From IMG/VR virus record IMGVR_UViG_3300010885_052980, positions 1 through 22,687 of that record: a stretch of DNA of 22,687 bases. One strand, 5' to 3'. Shown here piece by piece: positions 3,901 through 22,687 of this stretch. Numbering within the stretch: the first letter of the stretch is position 1; each line of letters opens with the position of its first letter. Below the pieces are notes generated by a model. The model was not told where the DNA came from, ran no database searches, and saw nothing but the letters and a program-made list of their open reading frames with translations. This stretch comes from a virus. Made by a program: the position numbers and the translations under genes.

Positions 3901-6900
3901 AAAACAAAGTTGTAAAACAAGTTAAAAAATCTACTAAGAAAGTTGGAGAAGCGGTTGCTACGACTGTTGGAGATATATCAAAAGTAGCAGTAGAAACTGT
4001 TTCTGCTACTGGAACAAACTTATCACAAACAATAGCTACCGTTGCAGCTGAAACTAAAGATAATATTAGTAACTCTGTTGCTGAAAGCACTTCAGCAATT
4101 CCTGATTCAAAACCAAAACGAGGGCGGAAGAGAAGGACCGTAGATGTCCCTAACCCTAGTACAGTAACCGCTCCTGTCTCTGATGCTGCTGCTGAAACTG
4201 CTGCAACTGTTCAAACTGTTGCTGCTGAAACTGCTGCAACTGTTCAAACTGTTGCTGCTGAAACTGCTGCAACTGTTCAAACTGTTGCTGCTGAAACTGC
4301 TGCAACTGTTCAAACTGTTGCTGCTCAAAATTCTTCTGCTATTGATACCGCTGCTTCCGAAACTGCTGCTGCTATTAAAATTTCTGCCGCTGAAACTTCT
4401 GCTGCCATTACAATTACTGATGCTCAAACTGCTGCTTCTCAACCCGTAATTCTTCCTGATTCAAAGCCAAAACGAGGGCGGCCTAGAAAAATTCCTACTG
4501 GTGGATCAGTAACCGCTCCTGTTTCTAATGCTGCCGCTAATGCTGCTTTAATTGTTGCTGATAGTAAAGCGGGAATTGTAGAAAGTGTTGCAGAAACTAG
4601 TAGTCAAGTGAAAAGAGGTGGAACTAGAGGCCGAAATTATAAAAAAGTAATGGTAAGTTGGGCTGACATTATAAAAATGCATGATGATGCAGGGGTCCAA
4701 ATTGATGAAGAATTAAGATGGTTGTCTCAATCTACTAAAACTTTTGAAATTACTGAAGCAAAGAGGAATAGTATCCAGAAAAATATTATTGAAACAGAAA
4801 AGCCATTTATGAGGTTAACAAAAAAAGCACCGTTGCGTGAAGGCTTTGATAGTTCTTTTCAAACAATAGGTGCTATTCCTGGAGCTAAAGGTAGAGTGCG
4901 AGCAGCGGGGTCTGGCGCATCTATAGCGGGGCTAGCGTTTGCAGATAGTAAAGAAGCGCAAATTCAGCCCTTCATGGATGCTTTGGCGGAAGAACTTAGA
5001 GTTGTTGGTGATAAAACAAAATTAACTTCGTTTTTTGACAATCAAGCAAAGTTTAGGAGTACAGGTCGCAGTAGCGCTGCGAAAGTTAGTAGCTCATTTG
5101 ATGTTAATGCTGTTACTAAAAGAATAGCTCCAGTAGAAGACCTTTTTAATCTTTTAGCAACTACTGAAGATGATTTGGTTGAAGCAATTCAGGGAATTGA
5201 TATTCATCAAGGCAATCTTGAATATAATGGTGATCTTGTAAAACGTAATTTTTTGGAGGAAGTAAAGAGTAATAAACCTAAACAAAAAGTTAAAGGGCTA
5301 CTATCCCTAGCCCTACAAAGAGCCGGAATTGATACTCGTGAATTAACTAGTCAGCATATTGCAATGTCTCAACCTATGTTGATTGATGATGAAGCTCTTG
5401 CAAAAAGAGATGATGGTATCATAAGAAAATGGGTTAGATCTATTACGCGAAAATCAAGAGATGGAAAACTTGTTTTAAAAAAGAGTCTTTTTAGTAAGCA
5501 AGAACTTGATTATCTTGCCGGAGTGCCAGATTTATCAGCTTTTGATTTGACTGAAAGAGAACTTAAAAGGCTTTCAAACAAATTAAGCAAAATGGGGCCT
5601 TCAGCTAGTTTATTACAAGACTATCAAAGAGCAAATCAGCTTCCTGTAACGGATGTATCTAGGGCATCTGATGTAATAAATGCACCTCGCGGTAAAGATG
5701 TGGCAAACCCTAAAGCTGGCAAGGATTCTGGGAAACGATCCGCTAGTAATGCGCGGAACATAATCGCAAAGGCGGTTTATGACGAAAAAGAAGATATTAG
5801 AATTGCGGCTGCGGCTAAAGAATCTTTAGCTAATCTTTCTCCAGATATTCCGGCGGAAACACCAACTGTTGTTAAACCAAAGAGGGTGCGAGCCCCTCGG
5901 ATATCTAAAAGTGCAAAAAAAGCGGTTGAAGATATTTCTAAAAAATTACCTAGAAGTTTAAGTGCCGCTTTTAATCCTCAAACTTTTGGTGATTTAATAA
6001 ATCAACAAATTCAAGCTGTTGAGGATGCATTAACTGATGTTAAAGGAAGATTTAAACTTCCTGCTGCAAAAGCTGGAAACATTTCTTCTAGGATGAGAGC
6101 GAAAATTGTAGAATTAACAAAAAATTCTAAATACGCAGTAAATCTTCCAAATTTATTAGCTACACCAATTTCTGAAATTTCTAATGATATTCTTAAAAGC
6201 ATTGACGGTATGGGGAAAGGGTTAGTTGATGACTTGAGTGAGGGTATTAAGAATAAAAAAACTTTCCTTACACCTGAGGGTGCAGGCGAAAGACAAGTTG
6301 CAACAAGGGGCTGGAAAGCAAGAATTGATAGCGCTTTAGATAAAATTAAAAAAAGTAAAGTCACTCCTACCAAGGCTATAACTGATGGGCTTTTATCAAG
6401 TGTGTTCCGAGATGCAATGTCGGCTGCAGAAAAAGGCCTGGATGCGGCTGGCGCTGCAGCTGCTGCGGCTACAAGAACAGCGGCGGCAAGTGTCCCTGGA
6501 GCTAACCAACCTACAACACCAAGAGTAAGAACTCCCCGAGGCAAAGCATCAATCCCTCTTGACCCAGCAACTATGCTACCACTTAATCCAGATGATCAAT
6601 TGCAACCAATGAACGTCCGTGCTCCTAAGTCTGTTCCTGTTGTTCAGCCCGCCCTTCCTACTGACGATGTTGCTGCTCAATTAGCCGCAGATAAAGAAGC
6701 CGAAGAAAAGAGACTTCTCCGAAATGCCAATGCAAGAGCAAGAAATCGTGCTAAAAAACTCGCCGCTGAAGCTGCCGCTGCTGAATCTGCTGCTAAAATT
6801 GCTGATGACAAAGCTGTCGTAGAAGAACTAAGGCGTGTTAGAAGAGTTAACAACAGAGCAAGAAAAGATTTGGGTGCGTCTAGGGTAGCTCAATTAACTA

Positions 6901-15143: not shown

Positions 15144-16229
15144 ATGGCTTTTAGTCATTTTGGTATAACAGAACCTCTTAATAGTGGTTACGATTTCTAT
15201 ACAGCTGATGCCGCAATAAACATAGAAGCATCATTGTCGGCAAGCTTGACTGTTGCTGATACCGATGTTCTCAGGATATTAATTGCATCGGCAGATATTT
15301 CCGGGTCTTTAAGTGTTTCTGCGAGTGTAATAAAGATTGCAAAAGCAGAAATTGTAATAACAAATATTTTGACAACCACTCTTGATGCTGTCTTTGAAAG
15401 ACAAGATGGAGATGTGGTGATGTCTGCAAATGTTAGTGTTGCATGCAATGCAACAAAGATATCTTATGCGGGACAGGATGCTTTAGTAAATGTATCTAGT
15501 TCCGAATTGACTGTTAATATTCTTAGGATAGCAATTGCTAGCGCGTCTATTAGCCCATCACTATCTGTAGACCAAGTTCCTTTCCTTAAAATATCTAAGG
15601 CTAATTCGGATATAAGTGCAAACGCAACTGTTTCGTCTAATGCTTCAAGAATAGCATTTATTGCTGCGGCTTTTTCATCTCATCTTGATTTGTCAATTGC
15701 TGGAAAATTGTTCTTGATGACAATAAGAATAAATGTTTTAAATAACCTTAGCGTCCTTGGTTCAATGATTAGGTACTCTGCCAATACTAGCGTTGGGCAG
15801 GATACTAGTCTAATTAGAAATTATATATTAATTGATAATAAAGCTATAACTAACCACAACAGAGATTTCGGGACATCAATTGAGCCAATATTTATTGAAA
15901 ATAAAAATTGGGACAACTATAAATCAAGATATTATAAATCCACTGCTAGAGGTGGGAGAAGAACTTTTGATATTTCCTGGTCATATTTGCCAAATTCCAA
16001 AAATGCAACAGTTGATGGTAATGAAGGCAGGGATGTCATATCATCAATAGCTAAAGATCCAGACTACCATGTTTTAAAAATTTCAAATATGGACGCAGTA
16101 GGGACTACTCCAGACACAGAAACAAGTTATAATGTATTAGTGAAAAGTTACAGCGAAACTTTAGTCAGAAGGGATTTTTCTTCCAATACATACTATTGGG
16201 ATTGTCAGCTAACTTTAGAGGAGGTTTAA
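15144..16229 (+). CDS. Distal-tail-like protein with N-terminal ~21-residue repeat domain
   Basis: A 361-residue protein with GGAG (15133-15136) placed correctly for ATG 15144. Residues about 22-220 consist of roughly eight degenerate repeats of about 21 residues, Ala/Ser/Ile/Val-rich, with the pattern A-x-I-x-x-x-x-S-V and ending in R/K-I (for example ADISGSLSVSASVIKI and ASISPSLSVDQVPFLKI). This predicts stacked short beta strands. Residues about 225-361 are paralogous to the whole preceding protein: shared are the IDNKAITNHNR, RRTFDISWSYLP, TVDGNEGRDV and SYSETLVRRDF blocks. The gene therefore looks like a duplicate of its neighbour that gained an outward-facing repeat domain, perhaps for binding the cell surface. 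The stop overlaps the next start by one base. Confidence 0.75.
   Translation: MAFSHFGITEPLNSGYDFYTADAAINIEASLSASLTVADTDVLRILIASADISGSLSVSASVIKIAKAEIVITNILTTTLDAVFERQDGDVVMSANVSVACNATKISYAGQDALVNVSSSELTVNILRIAIASASISPSLSVDQVPFLKISKANSDISANATVSSNASRIAFIAAAFSSHLDLSIAGKLFLMTIRINVLNNLSVLGSMIRYSANTSVGQDTSLIRNYILIDNKAITNHNRDFGTSIEPIFIENKNWDNYKSRYYKSTARGGRRTFDISWSYLPNSKNATVDGNEGRDVISSIAKDPDYHVLKISNMDAVGTTPDTETSYNVLVKSYSETLVRRDFSSNTYYWDCQLTLEEV
15207..15800 (+). repeat. Degenerate ~63-bp repeats encoding ~21-residue beta units
   Basis: About eight diverged protein-level repeats, clearest around 15210-15345 and 15510-15660, with recurring ILRI/LKI/SRI endings and S-x-S-V cores. They are recognisable in protein sequence only, since the DNA copies have drifted, so the duplication is old compared with the perfect repeats at 4188 and 21226. 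Confidence 0.6.
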
Positions 16230-19200
16230 TGTTAATTAGGGGATTATACAATAAACCAATTTCTAACACATTCATTGAGAAAACAACATCAATTGCCCAA
16301 AGAGTAAAACCGCTTGTAATAATTGACTGGCTTGATAGTCGCCATATTGAGAAATCAGGTAACACCGAAGTTGCTTCAAGCAATTATGCATTTTCAGATG
16401 TATCTGACCAAACCGTTATAGACGAAGCTTATGGATTGTTGTCATTGAATACAACTTCAATGGGCCCACCGATTGTTAGAGCCGCCAGGTCTTTATCTGA
16501 CAAAGAGATTTTGTTTAATAAATCCAGAAGATCAAGTTTTTATTTTACGCCAAATGAATCAATAAACGGAATTGAGAGAGAATCTTTCACATGGGCAGTG
16601 GCTGGGGCTAAAGATATAAACGGGAATATAATAACATCAAATGGAAACTGGCATTGTTTACCAAGTGACAAAGACGATAATTTGGAATTCGGGTTTTGGT
16701 CGTCAGTAAAAAGTACAGAGTATTTGCATGCCACCAAGAATGGTTACGAATTCACGACACCAGTAACTTTGACATATTTGTTTACAGCCAGAGCGGTAAA
16801 TCTTGTTAAGGTTATAACATCTGAACATTATGGACAAATTAAATCATATAACCTCAAAGCATACAGAAATACATCAACTTTAGTTTTTGATCAAGATGGT
16901 GAAATAGCTGAAGATAATTATTTCTATAATCATTTCTTAGAGGGAATAACCAATAGCGATATTAATAAAATTCTATTAACTATTTACACTACTAAAAATA
17001 AATTAGATTATGCAAGAGTCCAAGAAGTTGCCCCAATATACCAAGTTGATATGTCCGACTATTTGATAAATGCAAATGTGTCAAAAGTTAGAGATATCCA
17101 CGAGACAAGTTTACCGATTGCAGGCGGTGGTGCTTCAACAGCTCAAGTCTCTTTTGACAATACACAAAAAGATTTCAACTTGTTTAATAGTGCGTCAACT
17201 TTTGGGAAATACATGAAAAAAGATTTGCGCACGTATATTTATGCTGGTTGGCAGATAAAGAAATCAAACAGTTCTGAAGTGTCAACAACTCTTGTTAGTT
17301 CTATAAATGCAAGTGCTAATTCATTGTCAGTAGGCGGGACTATTGATTTTCCTGACGGTGGAGGCGCTAATGATTTTGTGGTCATTGTTGACAAAGATAC
17401 TGTGTCTAGGGAGTACATGCTTTGTTCAAAGTCCGGTTCAGAAACATTATCAGTTACCGAAAGAGGTTACGGTGGGACTATCGCAAGAGCTCATAGCTCA
17501 GGCGCTTCTGTAACTTTTGATACTTACGAATATGTACCATATGGCGTTTTTTATGTTGACGAATGGCAGGCAGCTTCTTCATCAATGGTAGTTGACGCAA
17601 CAATGAGTGATTGGCAAAAATATAGTAATGAGAAAACTGTTACTAAAGGGTTTATGATGCAGAATGCAATTATTGCTGAATCAGTTAAGCAATTGTTGAT
17701 GAAAGTTAATTTTCCAAAATCTCAAATAAAATACTTGTCGCAGCCTTCTGAATCTTTCACAAGAAATGGGGCTATTCTCCATTTGGCTTTTGACGAAAAT
17801 GTTGTTGACAGGGAAAATGCAACTAGGACAATTTCAAGTTCCCTTAGGGCTAGGTTTGTGGAGATAGTGAGCAAATCTTTTGAGGAATATAGTTTGAAAG
17901 ATGTAATGCTAGATGCAAACGATAAAGATTTAAGCGTTCTAGAGCTGGCCTTAGATATAAAAGATTACTTTACTCCATCGTTAACAACAACATCATCTTT
18001 GATTTCTACGCAAGACCAAGGGTCTTCTGTAGCATTAAATTTTACAACGGGGTCTTTCACTAAACCAGATGGCAGTTCTGTCGTTGAATCATACAATGGA
18101 GTTTTTGATGGCTACTATGTTCCTACATCTTCGGGTTTGCAAAGATTATTAATTCTAATAAATAGAGGTGGTGTCAAAGTATACCTAGATAAGATTTTAA
18201 TAATAAATAACTGGTACATTGTTGAATCAGGTACTAATTCTACAGTAACCATCCAGTCAGCGGAGTATAACCTTACTGCTGGTAGAGCATACGAGTTAAG
18301 AATAGAATTCTTTACAGATGCAAAGCAAACCAACACTCCATTTCAAATTAAATTAAAAAAGAATGACGGATCTTTGGATTGGGTATATTCTAATCAAACA
18401 TACACAATGGTTGCTCTAGACAAAGTTGGAAGTAAAGCTAATCAATCTTATTTAACATTTAATAGCGGAACTGGGCGATGGGCAGTTGCCAGCGCTCAAA
18501 ACTCTATAGATAGAGCTGGGCGAAGGAATAATGCTATATACCGAGGCACTCCTGTGTTGGCGCAAGAAAGCGGAGTCGTGTCTGATACTGATAGTAAAAG
18601 CATTTTGTTGGCTTCAAATTCTTATTTAAGAATCCCTTACGATGTTTCTTATAACCGTTTTTATACAAGTCAAAGTGATTTTTCAATTTTAACATATATA
18701 AAATTTAGCGCAAACTCTTTCTCTGGCACTGGAGAGTTTATTAGCAATTGGAATAACTCTTCGTCAAATTCCGGGTTTGAGTTGTTTTATAATTCGTCAG
18801 CCAGTGGTTTAAAGATAGTGACATCAAGTGGTGTTCAGACTGTTTCATCAAATACGGCTATCTCTAATTCTTCTTTCACATTAATGACATTTACACTAAA
18901 GGGTTCATCTTTAAAATATTACATAAATGGCGCTTTGGTGAATACAGTAACCATATCGGGTACTCCAATTTCTTATGCAAATAAAGACCTTACAATTGGT
19001 GGTCGTGGATCTAGTTACGCTAGCGGGGCAGAAGTCGCCCCGGCATCTTTCAGGGAGATGTACATTGACCAGTTTGCTATTTTTAATAAAGCTTTAAGTG
19101 CTGAAGATGTACTGACTTCTTATATTGAAACTAAGATCCAGCCAATACAGAAATTCCCTTTTGCTTATGGTAATGATAAGACGGTTAAGAACATTATTGA

Positions 19201-20266
19201 TGATGTAAGCCTAGCCGACCTGGGGCGATTGTATATTGATGAAAATCAAAATGCAAGGTACGAGCATTATTATCGTTTTTTTGAATCAACAATTGATCAA
19301 CACGCAAACGTTCAGCAAATTTTTTCTGATTCAACAAATATCTTAGATGCTTCATACAATGTTCAATTGCATGTCAACAAGATCACTGTAAAACTTAAAG
19401 GGCAAGTTAGTAACTTGGTAGGGAAACAGTCTTTATGGCGTGCAGATAGTCCAACATCTTTGGCAACAACTTTACTAACATCAAACATAACTTCTACTTC
19501 TAACTCTATTCAAGTAACAACTACGGACAAGCCCAAGTATCCTAAATCTGGCTTTCTGAAAATTGACAATGAAATTGTAAAGTATAGCAACACAACTAGT
19601 AATGCTTTCTTGGCTGTTGAGAGGGCCCAATTTGATACAGTTGCTGCCGCGCATACTGCTAATGCAAAAGTAAGAGAGACATTAAAATTTGATGTTAGGT
19701 TTGATAAGACACCGGCTTTTCGGGTTGAAAACCCTTATATTAGTAATGTTGTTGATGTTATCCCTGCATTAATTGAGATTATTAAGTACGAGCCTACTCA
19801 CTATGGGGCTAAGTTAATTATTGCAGCATCTAATTCAACATCTGCTGGTGATTTAGTTTATGTAGAAGGGGAAAATCTTAAAGATAATAGTAAATCTTTT
19901 GCTTCAATTGCTGGTGTGCCTGTAATATTGCAAGAAACAAAGGGTGAAATCCAGGAAAAAACCGCTACTTTATCCGACAACATAAGAAAATATGGCCTTA
20001 AAGAGATGATCATTGAAAATGAATTCATCACCAGCCTAGAGCAAGCCCAATCTATTGCTGATTTCATTATATCTAAGATGAGTGAACCAGTCCCTATTGT
20101 AGAGTTATCAATACTTCCGAACCCCAGAGTGCAATTAGGAGATAGAGTTAAGATATCTTCACTGCAATCTTTTGATATAATTAATGGAGAGTATTGGGTG
20201 ATAAGCACAGAATGCCAGTTCACTCAGTCTCCTAGCCAGAAAGTGGTTTTAAGGAAGGTCGTGTAA
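16229..20266 (+). CDS. Tail hub/tip protein with PA14-like and LamG-like modules
   Basis: A 1345-residue protein, started at ATG 16229 by a strong GAGGAGG (16218-16224) and overlapping the previous stop by one base. The open frame reaches further upstream, but this start is clearly better. The N-terminal ~340 residues and the C-terminal ~260 residues look like a split tail-hub scaffold; the end (SIADFIISKM, VQLGDRVKI, GEYWVISTE) resembles phage hub proteins. A beta module with a closing RGYGGTIARAH block is found at about 352-430 and a related one at about 1077-1150. Residues about 590-730 look PA14-like (FDGYYVPTSSG, VKVYLDKILIINNW, TAGRAYELRIEFF). Residues about 788-970 look LamG/concanavalin-like (SILLASNSYLRIP, FTLMTFTLKG, YYINGALV, IDQFAIFNKALSAEDV). 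PA14 and LamG domains commonly bind glycans, so this is probably the surface-binding core of the tip. Confidence 0.8.
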   Translation: MLIRGLYNKPISNTFIEKTTSIAQRVKPLVIIDWLDSRHIEKSGNTEVASSNYAFSDVSDQTVIDEAYGLLSLNTTSMGPPIVRAARSLSDKEILFNKSRRSSFYFTPNESINGIERESFTWAVAGAKDINGNIITSNGNWHCLPSDKDDNLEFGFWSSVKSTEYLHATKNGYEFTTPVTLTYLFTARAVNLVKVITSEHYGQIKSYNLKAYRNTSTLVFDQDGEIAEDNYFYNHFLEGITNSDINKILLTIYTTKNKLDYARVQEVAPIYQVDMSDYLINANVSKVRDIHETSLPIAGGGASTAQVSFDNTQKDFNLFNSASTFGKYMKKDLRTYIYAGWQIKKSNSSEVSTTLVSSINASANSLSVGGTIDFPDGGGANDFVVIVDKDTVSREYMLCSKSGSETLSVTERGYGGTIARAHSSGASVTFDTYEYVPYGVFYVDEWQAASSSMVVDATMSDWQKYSNEKTVTKGFMMQNAIIAESVKQLLMKVNFPKSQIKYLSQPSESFTRNGAILHLAFDENVVDRENATRTISSSLRARFVEIVSKSFEEYSLKDVMLDANDKDLSVLELALDIKDYFTPSLTTTSSLISTQDQGSSVALNFTTGSFTKPDGSSVVESYNGVFDGYYVPTSSGLQRLLILINRGGVKVYLDKILIINNWYIVESGTNSTVTIQSAEYNLTAGRAYELRIEFFTDAKQTNTPFQIKLKKNDGSLDWVYSNQTYTMVALDKVGSKANQSYLTFNSGTGRWAVASAQNSIDRAGRRNNAIYRGTPVLAQESGVVSDTDSKSILLASNSYLRIPYDVSYNRFYTSQSDFSILTYIKFSANSFSGTGEFISNWNNSSSNSGFELFYNSSASGLKIVTSSGVQTVSSNTAISNSSFTLMTFTLKGSSLKYYINGALVNTVTISGTPISYANKDLTIGGRGSSYASGAEVAPASFREMYIDQFAIFNKALSAEDVLTSYIETKIQPIQKFPFAYGNDKTVKNIIDDVSLADLGRLYIDENQNARYEHYYRFFESTIDQHANVQQIFSDSTNILDASYNVQLHVNKITVKLKGQVSNLVGKQSLWRADSPTSLATTLLTSNITSTSNSIQVTTTDKPKYPKSGFLKIDNEIVKYSNTTSNAFLAVERAQFDTVAAAHTANAKVRETLKFDVRFDKTPAFRVENPYISNVVDVIPALIEIIKYEPTHYGAKLIIAASNSTSAGDLVYVEGENLKDNSKSFASIAGVPVILQETKGEIQEKTATLSDNIRKYGLKEMIIENEFITSLEQAQSIADFIISKMSEPVPIVELSILPNPRVQLGDRVKISSLQSFDIINGEYWVISTECQFTQSPSQKVVLRKVV
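17995..18425 (+). other. PA14-like domain in the tail hub protein
   Basis: The order FDGYYVP, VKVYLDKILIINNWYI, YNLTAGRAYELRIEFF follows the PA14 pattern (Y-x-G-Y-hydrophobic, V-x-hydrophobic-D-x-x-x-hydrophobic-I-x-x-W, L-x-A-G-x-x-Y-x-hydrophobic-x-hydrophobic-x-F/Y-F). PA14 is a beta-barrel carbohydrate-binding fold. The assignment is by motif reading only. Confidence 0.6.
18590..19135 (+). other. LamG-like (concanavalin fold) domain in the tail hub protein
   Basis: The sequence has the LamG-3 style order: an opening strand SILLASNSYLRIP, a long beta-rich body with FSILTYIKF and FELFYN, then FTLMTFTLKG, LKYYINGALVNTV, LTIGGRG, and the closing MYIDQFAIFNKALSAEDV. The final IDQFAIFNKALSAEDV-like ending is highly characteristic of LamG-3 modules in phage and bacterial surface proteins. 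Confidence 0.8.
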
Positions 20267-21450
20267 TGCCTAGCTCAAGTGGGATACCTGAAAGTTCAAT
20301 AGTTTTTTTTACTGGCGGTCATGATCATGATGGTATTTCTTCGGGGTTAATTAAAACTAACCAATATTCAATATATGATTGGGAAATTGGCGTTACTGTT
20401 GGCAATGGCCAAAGAGGGCAAAAACAAAGTGAAAATGCTGCTGGCTTTAGATTGCTTATTGATTCTATTGTCAAAGAAACGACACTTGGTCCTGCTGGTA
20501 TTAGGTTATCTCCTAACACAATCACTGGGCTACATATTGCGTCTAACACAATTACGGCTAATGAATTGAGCGCAAATATCGTTCTTGTTAATAATGTAAT
20601 TAGAAGTAATAATTTTGATGGGGGCGTTGCAGCCAATGGCACAATTACATCGGGTGGAACTGTTGGGTGGGCAATTTCTGGTGATGGCACAGCTATTTTG
20701 GATATAGCTTATATCCGTGGTTCAATACAGGCAGATAGTCTTTACATTAATGCTTTAAATTATTGGCAATCAAATGGCATATTTAGTGTTGGCGCAGCAA
20801 ACAATATTTTATTTTATAATGGGACAGATTTGGAATTAACTGGCAAAGTTACAGCGACATCTGGCCAAATTGCTGGTTGGGTTATTGATGCAGATAACCT
20901 GGAAACCGGCGGTAATTATGATGGGTCAATGATAATTGGACAGTTTGCAGAAACTAACGGTGGCGGTGGTGTAAAGATTGAAGGCGCAGCTGATGGTAAT
21001 AATGATTTCGGTACAGCCTATTTGACTGGTGAAGAATTATATTTCACAGACACTGTTACTAACAATGAATTATATGTTCGCTCTACAGGTATTGAATACG
21101 CTCTCAGCAATCAAATATGGCAATTTTATGAGAGCGGTGGTGCTTTATATGCTGTTGTTGATGGTACGGAGTACTGTCTTTCTCTTTGTGGTTCTGCGCC
21201 AGCTCCAGTAGGGGTATCTCCAGTTACAGTAGTAGGCACTACAGTAGTAGGCACTACAGTAGTAGGCACTACAGTAGTAGGCACTACAGTAGTAGGCACT
21301 ACAGTAGTAGGCCCAGTTACGGTAGTAGTAGGCCCAGTTACGGTAGTAGTAGGTGGTGGTGGATGTCCGCCAGAACGCGATTGCGCTGGAATATGTTGTC
21401 CAGAAGGTCAACTTTGCTTTACCGTTAAAGGTCAGAGTTATTGTATATGA
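20266..21450 (+). CDS. Tail fibre/appendage protein with tandem-repeat stalk and knottin-like tip
   Basis: A 394-residue protein; ATG 20266 overlaps the hub stop by one base. The N-terminus has TGGHDHDGISSGLI, a motif seen near the start of many phage tail fibre proteins. Residues about 75-300 are beta-rich, with repeats such as TITGLHIASNTITANEL, VGWAISGDG and QIAGWVIDADN, as in trimeric tail fibres. C304 and C308 follow, then a stalk of TVVGT units (residues 321-346) and two PVTVVVG units (350-363), a short Gly run, and a tip of 28 residues with six cysteines: C367, C373, C377, C378, C384, C393. The spacing C-x5-C-x3-CC-x5-C-x8-C fits the inhibitor-cystine-knot pattern. The likely role is receptor binding. 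No chaperone gene for folding is evident next to it. Confidence 0.75.
   Translation: MPSSSGIPESSIVFFTGGHDHDGISSGLIKTNQYSIYDWEIGVTVGNGQRGQKQSENAAGFRLLIDSIVKETTLGPAGIRLSPNTITGLHIASNTITANELSANIVLVNNVIRSNNFDGGVAANGTITSGGTVGWAISGDGTAILDIAYIRGSIQADSLYINALNYWQSNGIFSVGAANNILFYNGTDLELTGKVTATSGQIAGWVIDADNLETGGNYDGSMIIGQFAETNGGGGVKIEGAADGNNDFGTAYLTGEELYFTDTVTNNELYVRSTGIEYALSNQIWQFYESGGALYAVVDGTEYCLSLCGSAPAPVGVSPVTVVGTTVVGTTVVGTTVVGTTVVGTTVVGPVTVVVGPVTVVVGGGGCPPERDCAGICCPEGQLCFTVKGQSYCI
21226..21312 (+). repeat. 15-bp tandem repeat (TVVGT units), five full copies plus a partial one
   Basis: ACAGTAGTAGGCACT is repeated without change at 21226-21240, 21241-21255, 21256-21270, 21271-21285 and 21286-21300, followed by ACAGTAGTAGGC at 21301-21312. 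The unit is in frame, so copy number changes would lengthen or shorten the stalk by five residues each while keeping the tip in frame. Confidence 0.97.
21313..21354 (+). repeat. Two 21-bp repeats (PVTVVVG units)
   Basis: CCAGTTACGGTAGTAGTAGG is found at 21313-21332 and 21334-21353; the units differ only at the last base (C versus T). They join the 15-bp array to the Gly run before the cysteine-rich tip. Confidence 0.95.
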
Positions 21451-21498: not shown

Positions 21499-21654
21499 AT
21501 GAAACAAGAAATAAACAAAAATTTAAATAGTTATAAAACAAAACAAGATGATAGTAACAACTCTATTACAAAATGGTTATTGAAAAATGGCTGGATGCAA
21601 GAAGTTGATATTATCAATTCACAAAGGAGCAATGATTTAATTTATGAGCAATAA
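21499..21654 (+). CDS. Small unrecognised protein (51 residues)
   Basis: ATG 21499 to TAA 21652-21654 encodes 51 residues, Asn/Lys/Gln-rich at first, then an amphipathic ITKWLLKNGWMQEV stretch. It fills the only sizeable gap between the fibre gene and the acetyltransferase gene. Its stop lies 11 bases into the next gene, the compact spacing typical of this genome. No Shine-Dalgarno is visible before the ATG, which is the main reason for caution. No family recognised. Without it, 21451-21643 would be a 193-base intergenic stretch with no terminator that I can see. Confidence 0.5.
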   Translation: MKQEINKNLNSYKTKQDDSNNSITKWLLKNGWMQEVDIINSQRSNDLIYEQ

Positions 21655-22108
21655 TAGTGAAAATAAAATTTGGGAAGAAATAACTTCAACTTTAGAAGTT
21701 GATCATTTTCATGACTGGTTTCAAATAGAAAATCTTTTTGGCGAATTTGGCGAACCAGGTTTTACTCAAATAGATAAAGTATTAAATCAGCCAAATAAAA
21801 GTTTGAATGTAACATTTACTCTCTATAGAAATGAAAATGGTAAATTAGTTGGAATTAATGGTTTTTATATTGACAACAATATTCAAAAACCATTTACATT
21901 CATGGTACATCCAGACTATCTTCGTACTGGGATTGGCACAAAAATTGCAGATTTTATAACAAAACAATTTGCAGAAAAAAATAATCGTGAATTTGATTAT
22001 GAACAAAGCTGGAGAGATGTCTCCACCACCGAGTCTGCGGTAAAGTTTGCGAATAAATATGCAAAACAACAATATGACAAAATAAATAATTTAAAAAATG
22101 AGGGATGA
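21644..22108 (+). CDS. GNAT-family N-acetyltransferase
   Basis: A 154-residue protein. The core shows the GNAT order: a beta pair (LNVTFTLYRNENGKLVGINGFYI), then motif A with FMVHPDYLRTGIGTKIADFI, where R94-T-G-I-G-T99 fits the acetyl-CoA pyrophosphate-binding R/Q-x-x-G-x-G/A signature. These enzymes transfer an acetyl group from acetyl-CoA to an amine. The substrate cannot be told from sequence; in a tail cluster it could be a virion protein, a sugar or a host factor. AAAGGAG (21623-21629) lies 14 bases before ATG 21644, rather far; the nearer ATG 21632 runs into a stop after two codons. The last helix (from AVKFANKYAKQQY) is typical of the fold's C-terminus. It overlaps the next gene by one base. 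Confidence 0.78.
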   Translation: MSNNSENKIWEEITSTLEVDHFHDWFQIENLFGEFGEPGFTQIDKVLNQPNKSLNVTFTLYRNENGKLVGINGFYIDNNIQKPFTFMVHPDYLRTGIGTKIADFITKQFAEKNNREFDYEQSWRDVSTTESAVKFANKYAKQQYDKINNLKNEG

Positions 22109-22332
22109 TGTCTGCATACGAAGAATATAAGATAAAAATGAAAGCTGCTAGGCCTTGGGATCTTTTAAATAGTGATAATTATGCAGATGAAAAAATATCA
22201 TCAACTAGATATGAAATATGTTTATCTTGCCCTGAATTAATTAATTTAACAAAACAATGTAAACAATGTGGTTGTGTAATGCCATTAAAAACTAAATTAA
22301 TTAACGCATCATGTCCTCTTTCTAAATGGTGA
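22108..22332 (+). CDS. Small Cys-rich putative zinc-binding protein (DUF6171-like)
   Basis: A 74-residue protein with C38-x2-C41, C51-x2-C54-G-C56 and a terminal C69-P-L-x-K-W. This CxxC...CxxCGC...CPxxKW layout is the one I associate with DUF6171-type phage proteins of unknown function and suggests bound zinc; the family name is from memory and not checked. Start: ATG 22105 and ATG 22108 are both in frame. GAGGG (22100-22104) abuts 22105 but is usefully spaced for 22108, which also forms the TGATG overlap with the preceding stop, so 22108 is chosen. The role is unknown. It is coupled by overlap to the oxygenase-like gene that follows. Confidence 0.75.
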   Translation: MSAYEEYKIKMKAARPWDLLNSDNYADEKISSTRYEICLSCPELINLTKQCKQCGCVMPLKTKLINASCPLSKW

Positions 22333-22687
22333 CTATTCTTGCTCCAGGAATAAATGTTTATTCCATGGATATTGATAAATCAAAAAACTATTATGAAACT
22401 TTAAAAGATTATTCTGAGCCGTTTTTGACATTAGGCTCAATTGTAGGGGGGAATCCTGAAGAAGGTTATCATTCTGTAATTGATGTACACATAAGAAATT
22501 GCAAAATATTTTCTACTGATAGATTAAATGCTTGTCATGAATCAGACCCTTTAAGGATAATGATTGTTGATGCTCAGGAAGAGATGGACAAATTTGTTAA
22601 TCTTTTTCGTTCAGAATATCAAGCTTCAGCAGTATCAAGGAATCATGATTTGATTTTTATGAGATATGAACAAGGTGAATTTTTTAA
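22329..22687 (+). CDS. Probable 2OG-Fe(II) oxygenase, N-terminal part (runs off the window)
   Basis: A frame begins at GTG 22329, overlapping the previous stop by four bases (GTGA), and is open to the last base: about 119 residues. No Shine-Dalgarno is visible, so translational coupling is likely. ATG 22365 is a possible later start. The last residues, LIFMRYEQGEFF, match the strand just before the iron-binding H-x-D in prolyl-4-hydroxylase-like oxygenases (typically RYxxGxxFxxHxD), and the segment ending in Q-A-S-A-V-S-R fits the preceding region. Such enzymes use iron, oxygen and 2-oxoglutarate to hydroxylate proteins or nucleic acids and are common in aquatic phages. The metal-binding residues would fall just past the window end, so catalysis cannot be confirmed here. 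Confidence 0.6.
   Translation, partial: MTILAPGINVYSMDIDKSKNYYETLKDYSEPFLTLGSIVGGNPEEGYHSVIDVHIRNCKIFSTDRLNACHESDPLRIMIVDAQEEMDKFVNLFRSEYQASAVSRNHDLIFMRYEQGEFF

Follow-up and report, generated by a model that had tools for sequence, protein, structure and literature searches.

The window, a viral DNA record of 22,687 bases analysed at its full length, encodes a 394-residue tail fibre whose last 28 residues form a cysteine-rich tip. Comparison with related phage contigs leads us to read this end as an exchangeable, disulfide-stabilised receptor-binding fibre tip of actinophages, a reading to which we give a probability of roughly 0.6. The host that a phage can infect depends in part on its fibre tips. 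The combination of neck, stalk and Cys-rich tip is present in 24 of 68 complete fibres of the family (14 clusters). Such an end, regarded in the first-pass annotation as unusual for a phage fibre, is within this family one of two common ends.

The Tail Fibre Gene and Its Genomic Setting

The gene order in the window runs from a very long tape measure-like ORF through two small proteins and a hub-like minor tail protein to the fibre, whose ORF begins with ATG and continues uninterrupted to a C-terminus reading ...GGGGCPPERDCAGICCPEGQLCFTVKGQSYCI. Its identification as a tail fibre in the first-pass annotation is upheld by this position: the gene adjoins the tail hub, and with the C-terminal 306 aa of the hub as query, 84 of 86 related contigs showed a hub homologue whose end lies no more than 54 bp ahead of the fibre (L142 and L143, of the class named "other" below, gave no hub match). 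Lying in the tail module beside the hub and sharing its N-terminus with fibres that end in Peptidase_S74, the protein is a member of a phage tail fibre family. The parts of the fibre and the gene before it are the following.

16196-20266, plus strand: tail hub-like minor tail protein containing LamG and PA14 domains, encoded by the conserved gene that immediately precedes the fibre (phrog_10359 minor tail protein, E 1.8e-18)
20266-21450, plus strand: tail fibre ORF, 394 aa (translation, homologue scans, alignment, AlphaFold2)
20266-20760, plus strand: conserved fibre N-terminal part, residues ~1-165, common to Cys-type and S74-type fibres (alignment)
20953-21183, plus strand: predicted beta-strand-rich shaft end, residues 230-306 (AlphaFold2 strands, block pLDDT ~56-71)
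21175-21189, plus strand: neck pair C304-x3-C308 (CLSLC), with C-x3-C in 16 of the 16 Cys-type fibres listed
21190-21363, plus strand: low-complexity stalk of 58 residues, V/G/T/P (TRF repeats, composition, pLDDT)
21364-21447, plus strand: cysteine-rich tip, residues 367-394, C-x5-C-x3-CC-x5-C-x8-C (sequence, AlphaFold2, relatives)

Cysteines of the fibre lie at residues 304, 308, 367, 373, 377, 378, 384 and 393, and Cys-type fibres in general have none in their first 250 residues. They are also rare in the upstream tail proteins, with 0 in the 4590 residues of the tape measure, 3 in the 1356 of the hub, and 2 each in the proteins of 361 aa and 131 aa. The full-length AlphaFold2 model of the fibre is weak (pLDDT 48.2); it puts the neck where the predicted shaft ends and predicts stalk residues 316-365 to be disordered (pLDDT < 50). 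The stalk is encoded by tandem repeats detected by TRF at 21225-21312 (15 bp x 5.9) and 21303-21353 (21 bp x 2.4), and because both the 15-bp and the 21-bp repeats (21225-21353) are in frame, slippage could alter the length of the stalk without a frameshift. Across Cys-type fibres the stalk measures 18-84 residues and is rich in V, G, P or T.

Two further contigs encode the same fibre: L002 (49 kb) is identical over residues 1-394, and L003 is identical over residues 1-360, up to the contig end. A WhiB gene is carried by L002; across the set, 17 of 24 Cys-type contigs have one, as do 28 of the 30 S74-type contigs searched (34 in all), and the WhiB-negative contigs may be fragments. The C-terminal part of the hub matches 109 isolated phage records, all of them Streptomyces phages (tblastn, E 1e-3), with matches spanning hub residues ~1157-1355 among those listed. 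The WhiB genes and the actinophage-related tail genes together make an actinobacterial host very probable.

Some observations on neighbouring genes can be added. The LamG and PA14 domains of the hub-like protein may give the tail tip additional sites for binding carbohydrate, and the very long tape measure-like gene contains 33-bp tandem repeats at 4184-4436. Upstream in the 49 kb contig, an 870-aa ORF (L068:12384-14996) has a signal-like N-terminus and, by eye, long Ser/Thr-rich stretches that resemble the Thr-rich fibre stalks in style.

Related Fibres and Their Two Common Ends

Related loci were gathered by four scans with fibre queries, giving 87 loci. L053 and L103 lie on the same contig and both run off its end, which brings the number of distinct contigs to 86 and leaves the class counts unaffected. 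A complete fibre stop is found in 68 of the 86 contigs, comprising 24 Cys-type, 34 S74-type and 10 other fibres; the remaining 18 contigs end inside the fibre and were placed in no end class. The Cys-type class was picked by eye and the S74-type by a text pattern, with Pfam confirming Peptidase_S74 in all four S74-type loci scanned (L021, L036, L039 and L055, out of 34), and the 10 complete other fibres stand outside both classes (one of them, L059, has 6 Cys and no neck). Because several loci are exact copies on different contigs, clusters at 85% identity were used for counting, 14 for the Cys-type, 24 for the S74-type and 9 for the others. The S74-type text pattern is absent from all 24 complete Cys-type fibres, and a Pfam search at E 1 gave no Peptidase_S74 (PF13884) match in the window fibre.

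Against isolated phages, the fibres of the window and L033 gave weak partial matches only and the fibre ends of L084 and L060 gave no match, a fibre profile found no relative in cellular genomes, and the L084 end as query returned only the contig of L019 among the matches listed.

The Cysteine-Rich Tip and Its Predicted Fold

The first-pass annotation had described the final 28 fibre residues as holding six cysteines in the spacing C-x5-C-x3-CC-x5-C-x8-C and had likened their C-C-CC-C-C order to that of knottins, the inhibitor cystine knot (ICK) peptides. The spacing is exactly present at 21364-21447, as is the order, and six cysteines within any 28 residues arose in 3 of 20,000 shuffles of the fibre's own residues. 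AlphaFold2 predicts the tip as a beta-hairpin (E22-25/E28-31, mean pLDDT 78.7, pTM 0.37) that recurs in the full-length model, with the fifth and sixth tip cysteines predicted to sit at its two ends. Structure prediction, which had been proposed as a check, thus offers a candidate fold; Foldseek gave no significant match to the tip model (best E 1.3). The top two Foldseek rows, at E 1.3 and 2.4 and not significant, are KASH2, a disulfide-directed beta-hairpin (DDH) peptide of a sea star.

Pfam assigned no family to the tip alone or to the last 95 fibre residues, and VIA-align 2 gave nothing at Z >= 2 among the 32 chains aligned, a range that leaves out chains of < 30 residues such as KASH2. 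A profile of 12 tips gave one non-significant row against PDB sequences, and the L004 tip gave nothing significant there. The closest solved chain by sequence is a cysteine-rich eggshell membrane protein (9pgb), with a phmmer E of 0.0013 over four modules and an i-E of 0.97 for its best single module against the 28-residue tip.

The likeness to knottins holds for the order of the cysteines, is equivocal for the loops and does not extend to most of the relatives. An excerpt of PMC4942781 gives the ICK formula as CX3-7CX3-8CX0-7CX1-4CX4-13C with bonds 1-4, 2-5 and 3-6; the loops of the window tip are 5, 3, 0, 5 and 8, the fourth exceeding its range of 1-4 by one, and the same excerpt also says of the fourth loop that it is "generally no more than 6." A true inhibitor cystine knot, in which the six tip cysteines would be paired 1-4, 2-5 and 3-6 with the third bond threading the ring, would accord with the C-C-CC-C-C order, with four of five loops inside the formula and the fifth inside the looser limit of that excerpt (PMC4942781), with the predicted hairpin, whose two ends hold the fifth and sixth cysteines, and with top, albeit non-significant, Foldseek rows whose DDH fold is described as related to ICK. 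However, the three-disulfide set is not kept among homologues: the order recurs in only one of 13 other clusters, L022, and there the first loop is of 2 residues, while six of the 13 have four tip cysteines only, so that no three-disulfide knot is possible in them. Together with the lack of a significant fold match, this makes a true knot unlikely. "Knottin" is a possible name for the window tip, but a two-disulfide hairpin core with an added Cys pair would, going by the predicted model, describe it better.

Variety of Tips Among Cys-Type Fibres

The four-Cys core C-x3/4-C-P-x4-C-x4..8-C is shared by nine of the 14 Cys-type clusters including that of the window. Conservation of the tip cysteines in relatives, another check that had been proposed at the outset, is accordingly partial: the core recurs in 8 of the 13 other clusters, but the other five (L017, L020, L022, L060 and L084, i.e., 5 of 14) lack it and have different beads. 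In six clusters (L004, L006, L010, L012, L032 and L033) the tip consists of these four cysteines alone, the tips of the window and L031 have the core plus two more, and L009 has the core with two more as well as a separate four-Cys bead. Among the core-free clusters, L022 has its own six-Cys arrangement, and larger beads of other types are found in L017, L020, L060 and L084, of which the L084 protein joins the L020 bead type to the L017 bead type, an instance of module shuffling. Pfam gave nothing, or low-complexity matches below cut-off, on the beads of these last four. The last core loop varies between 4 and 8 residues from cluster to cluster (L031 has 2 + 2 around an extra Cys), and across Cys-type fibres the number of tip cysteines runs from 4 to 16 in several bead types.

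When all viral contigs were scanned with a DNA pattern for C-x-P-x-C-P-x-G-x-x-C-[IV], a strict pattern that misses some tips of the family including that of the window itself, six contigs matched, and in all six the match lies in frame within a fibre of the window's family. An earlier, stricter tip pattern had returned only 3 contigs, all already in the set. In bacterial and archaeal genomes the core pattern gave four matches, three of which were taken as chance on account of in-frame stop codons close by; the remaining one lies in a longer Cys-rich deltaproteobacterial reading frame.

This variety bears on an alternative in which the neck and tip cysteines would form inter-chain bonds that lock the fibre trimer, replacing the missing S74 chaperone. 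The mutual exclusion of Cys-type and S74-type ends, together with a C-x3-C neck that is common to the 16 listed fibres and stands at the predicted end of the shaft, is what such a lock would lead one to expect. However, bead diversity from 4 to 16 tip cysteines exceeds what trimer locking would need, and a stalk of 18-84 residues separates neck from tip, although the idea could hold for the neck alone. We regard such a trimer lock as unlikely.

Disulfides or Metal

The number of cysteines is even in 14 of 14 Cys-type clusters (6, 8, 12, 16 or 18) and in all 24 loci, compared with 8 of 24 S74-type clusters, a contrast with a Fisher p of 3.4e-5 that overstates independence, as six of those eight S74-type clusters have zero Cys counted as even and the clusters are related to one another. 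Cysteines beyond the core also come in twos, in the window, in L031 and in the last bead of L009, and L028, whose contig ends inside the stalk, is without both neck cysteines together. The even counts, the paired extra cysteines and this joint loss of the neck pair argue for disulfides over metal sites or free thiols. The first-pass annotation had left the choice between disulfides formed after release and bound metal; disulfide formation in the tip is now favoured, as far as counts and pairing in the sequences can indicate.

Binding of zinc or iron by the tip cysteines in place of disulfides would fit a cytoplasm that is reducing, and the neighbouring DUF6171-like protein does have CxxC pairs. 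Metal-binding fibre tips are known, T4 gp37 reportedly having iron sites. The window tip itself, however, has neither a His nor a CxxC pair, and the last core loop changes length between clusters while the Cys count stays even. Metal binding by the tip is thus the less likely alternative, and we consider it very improbable; the favoured disulfides would most likely be made once lysis has released the virions from the reducing cytoplasm.

Exchange of the Fibre End

On a tree of the hub C-terminus built from 44 representatives (L051 was too short and was left out), the Cys-type label needs at least 7 changes, counted on starred branches, and none of 500 label shuffles reached as few as 7, which means that the label is clustered on the tree yet has changed repeatedly. 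The clearest single case is a pair of near-identical phages. The hub C-termini of L032 (Cys-type) and L039 (S74-type) are identical, and 5.5 kb of their DNA align at 98.6% identity until fibre residue ~167, near the end of the conserved fibre N-terminal part, where the swap starts. Their fibre ends have no blastn match to each other, and identity resumes at 98.4%, beginning 1.05 kb and 0.19 kb, respectively, after the fibre stop. Two less closely related pairs, L012/L021 and L060/L141, show similar breaks, preceded by ~82% identity. Judging from these alignments, the swapped unit is the fibre end together with the genes behind it, and neck, stalk repeats and downstream genes, on which the first-pass annotation was silent, belong to one unit with the Cys-rich tip. 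The repeated swapping of the end suggests receptor binding as the most likely role of the tip, and L032/L039 offer a ready natural comparison of two fibre ends.

Genes Carried Behind the Fibre

Three ORFs follow the fibre in the variable cassette of the window.

21644-22108, plus strand: ORF of a GNAT-type acetyltransferase (Pfam Acetyltransf_1, above cut-off at E 2.8e-5)
22105-22332, plus strand: DUF6171-like small Cys-rich ORF, also matching phrog_13558 (E 9.7e-17), zinc-ribbon-like by eye and a marker for cassettes of the Cys-type
22326-22687, plus strand: 2OG-Fe(II) oxygenase ORF, truncated where the window stops (whole copy at L002:7061-7651)

The Pfam DUF6171 match of the second ORF has an E of 2.7e-5 and is below cut-off, and the complete oxygenase copy in L002 matches 2OG-FeII_Oxy_3 at E 2.8e-15. 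The cassette scan covered 20 of the 24 Cys-type loci, with the near or exact copies L011, L023, L024 and L034 left out. Every one of these 20 had a DUF6171-like gene, which was seen in 0 of 34 S74-type and 0 of 10 other loci; counted by cluster, this is 14 of 14 Cys-type versus 0 of 24 S74-type. An oxygenase like that of the window is present in 14 of 20 Cys-type loci and in none of the 34 S74-type or 10 other loci. Elsewhere among the Cys-type loci different enzymes appear, namely a PF11397 GlcNAc transferase in L017 (E 5e-29) and L020 (E 3.5e-33), an ORF in L084 that on reading its sequence is nearly that of L017, and weak O-FucT matches below cut-off for ORFs of L010 and L033; the contig of L009 ends too early to show its enzyme gene. 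The comparison with S74-type loci was made for the DUF6171-like and 2OG genes, and in 29 of the 34 the next conserved gene starts at most 42 bp past the fibre stop, which leaves no room for cassette genes. The other five (L039, L040, L055, L117 and L122) have 0.2-0.8 kb between the fibre stop and the next conserved gene. The linkage of enzyme and fibre is imperfect, the fibres of L017 and L045 being 99% identical with different enzymes behind them.

As to the remaining positions of the cassette, a GNAT relative of the window's acetyltransferase occurs in L022. Many Cys-type loci have between the fibre and the DUF6171-like gene a 65-aa ORF (RRFVxxxEGDVFMQ...) with a weak match to phrog_14370, for example L006:6112-6309 and also L002, and the window has the GNAT gene in its place.

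The DUF6171-like gene is also found in unrelated phages, of which nine isolated-phage contexts were read. It stands beside tail or structural genes in four, all cyanophages (S-CBS2, S-CRES3, S-IOM18 and QB2), and clearly away from tail genes in another four (Moby, TM30, X1 and S-CBWM1); in Sf-CH8 a baseplate gene is ~4 kb away. Among the contexts read, those in Stenotrophomonas, Rhizobium and Xanthomonas phages have it elsewhere. A role for this gene as a helper of fibres only was considered and set aside as not general, given the four of nine contexts away from tail genes. Cys-rich ORFs neighbour it in S-CBS2 (7 Cys), S-CRES3 (23) and S-IOM18 (9), odd counts to which the even-count rule does not extend, and S-IOM18 also has nearby an ORF that is 2OG-like by eye.

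Modification of the fibre stalk or tip by the cassette enzymes (2OG oxygenase, GlcNAc transferase and O-FucT-like) may be put forward, tentatively, from the association of these genes with the Cys-type end. The same genes also permit another view of the end, as a shielding or particle-attachment extension, a mucin-like stalk with beads in place of a receptor-binding tip. Stalks rich in Thr and Pro beside glycosyltransferase or oxygenase genes accord with such an extension, and mycobacteriophages are described in an excerpt of PMC12363180 as having glycosylated capsid and tail tube proteins. However, the Cys-type end occupies the place of the S74-type end and swaps at it, which fits receptor choice better, and we hold shielding or particle attachment to be improbable beside the receptor-binding tip.

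A Model of the Fibre End

Taken together, the fibre would be built outward from an N-terminus that adjoins the tail hub, through a beta-rich shaft and a C-x3-C neck, to a disordered stalk and then one or more Cys-rich beads. The bead of the window would be a 28-residue mini-domain in which a two-disulfide beta-hairpin core and an extra pair give the C-C-CC-C-C order, and its disulfides would take the place of a large fold in holding it compact. The most likely target of such a tip is a receptor on the host surface, and the unrelated ends that stand in its place in near-identical phages would then mark a switch in host recognition. The Cys-type cassette brings with it a DUF6171-like gene and an enzyme gene that may act on stalk or tip.

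A bolder proposal, which we offer with some doubt, is that these ends are stalk-and-bead adhesins resembling secreted eukaryotic proteins of the mucin/EGF type, with disordered Pro/Thr/Val stalks, disulfide-rich mini-domains and dedicated enzymes exchanged as one unit. In such adhesins the cassette enzymes would hydroxylate or glycosylate the fibre, the DUF6171-like protein would be a helper, and the whole would be exchanged against chaperone-ended fibres. If the tip is indeed a disulfide mini-domain, it would provide a compact, durable binding site that needs neither a large fold nor an S74 chaperone. The association of tip type with enzyme genes also opens a direct test of self-modification, in which receptor-binding tips would be hydroxylated or glycosylated by enzymes of the phage itself.

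Comparison With Known Systems

Phages are known to exchange fibre ends, and in the literature searched, a limited collection, we found no description of Cys-rich or cystine-knot fibre tips or of a Cys-type end with enzyme genes. A parallel is offered by the "Ca. Nanopelagicales" phages E7 and F5, actinophages for which the text of PMC10202952 reports whiB and an island of variable sequence that covers part of the tail fibre and may, it is suggested there, have to do with host recognition; that island is described with collagen-like proteins, and the string "cystein" is absent from the same text. S74-ended fibres (PF13884) share with the window fibre the gene position and the N-terminal family, but they end in a C-terminal intramolecular chaperone, whereas the window fibre ends in a stalk and a Cys-rich tip.

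With respect to the tip itself, DDH peptides such as KASH2 likewise have a four-Cys core, and the window tip resembles them also in its predicted hairpin; an excerpt of PMC11891777 gives their disulfides as C1-C3 and C2-C4. Unlike the window tip they are free animal peptides, and the likeness is here one of Cys pattern and predicted fold. ICK/knottin peptides have the C-C-CC-C-C order in common with the window tip, which differs from them in being part of a virion fibre and in having one loop outside the formula. The eggshell module spacing C-x4-C-x5-C-x8-C, taken from the alignment with 9pgb, equals that of C373/C378/C384/C393 in the window, but the eggshell membrane protein is of a different kind and the similarity is short and likely convergent. 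Within phage tails, disulfide networks are known in the sheath, tube and baseplate of Milano (PMC10811340, in part) and disulfides in the tail tube of T1 (PMC11945409, in part). In both of these the bonds link subunits, whereas those of the window fibre would stabilise a mini-domain at its tip.
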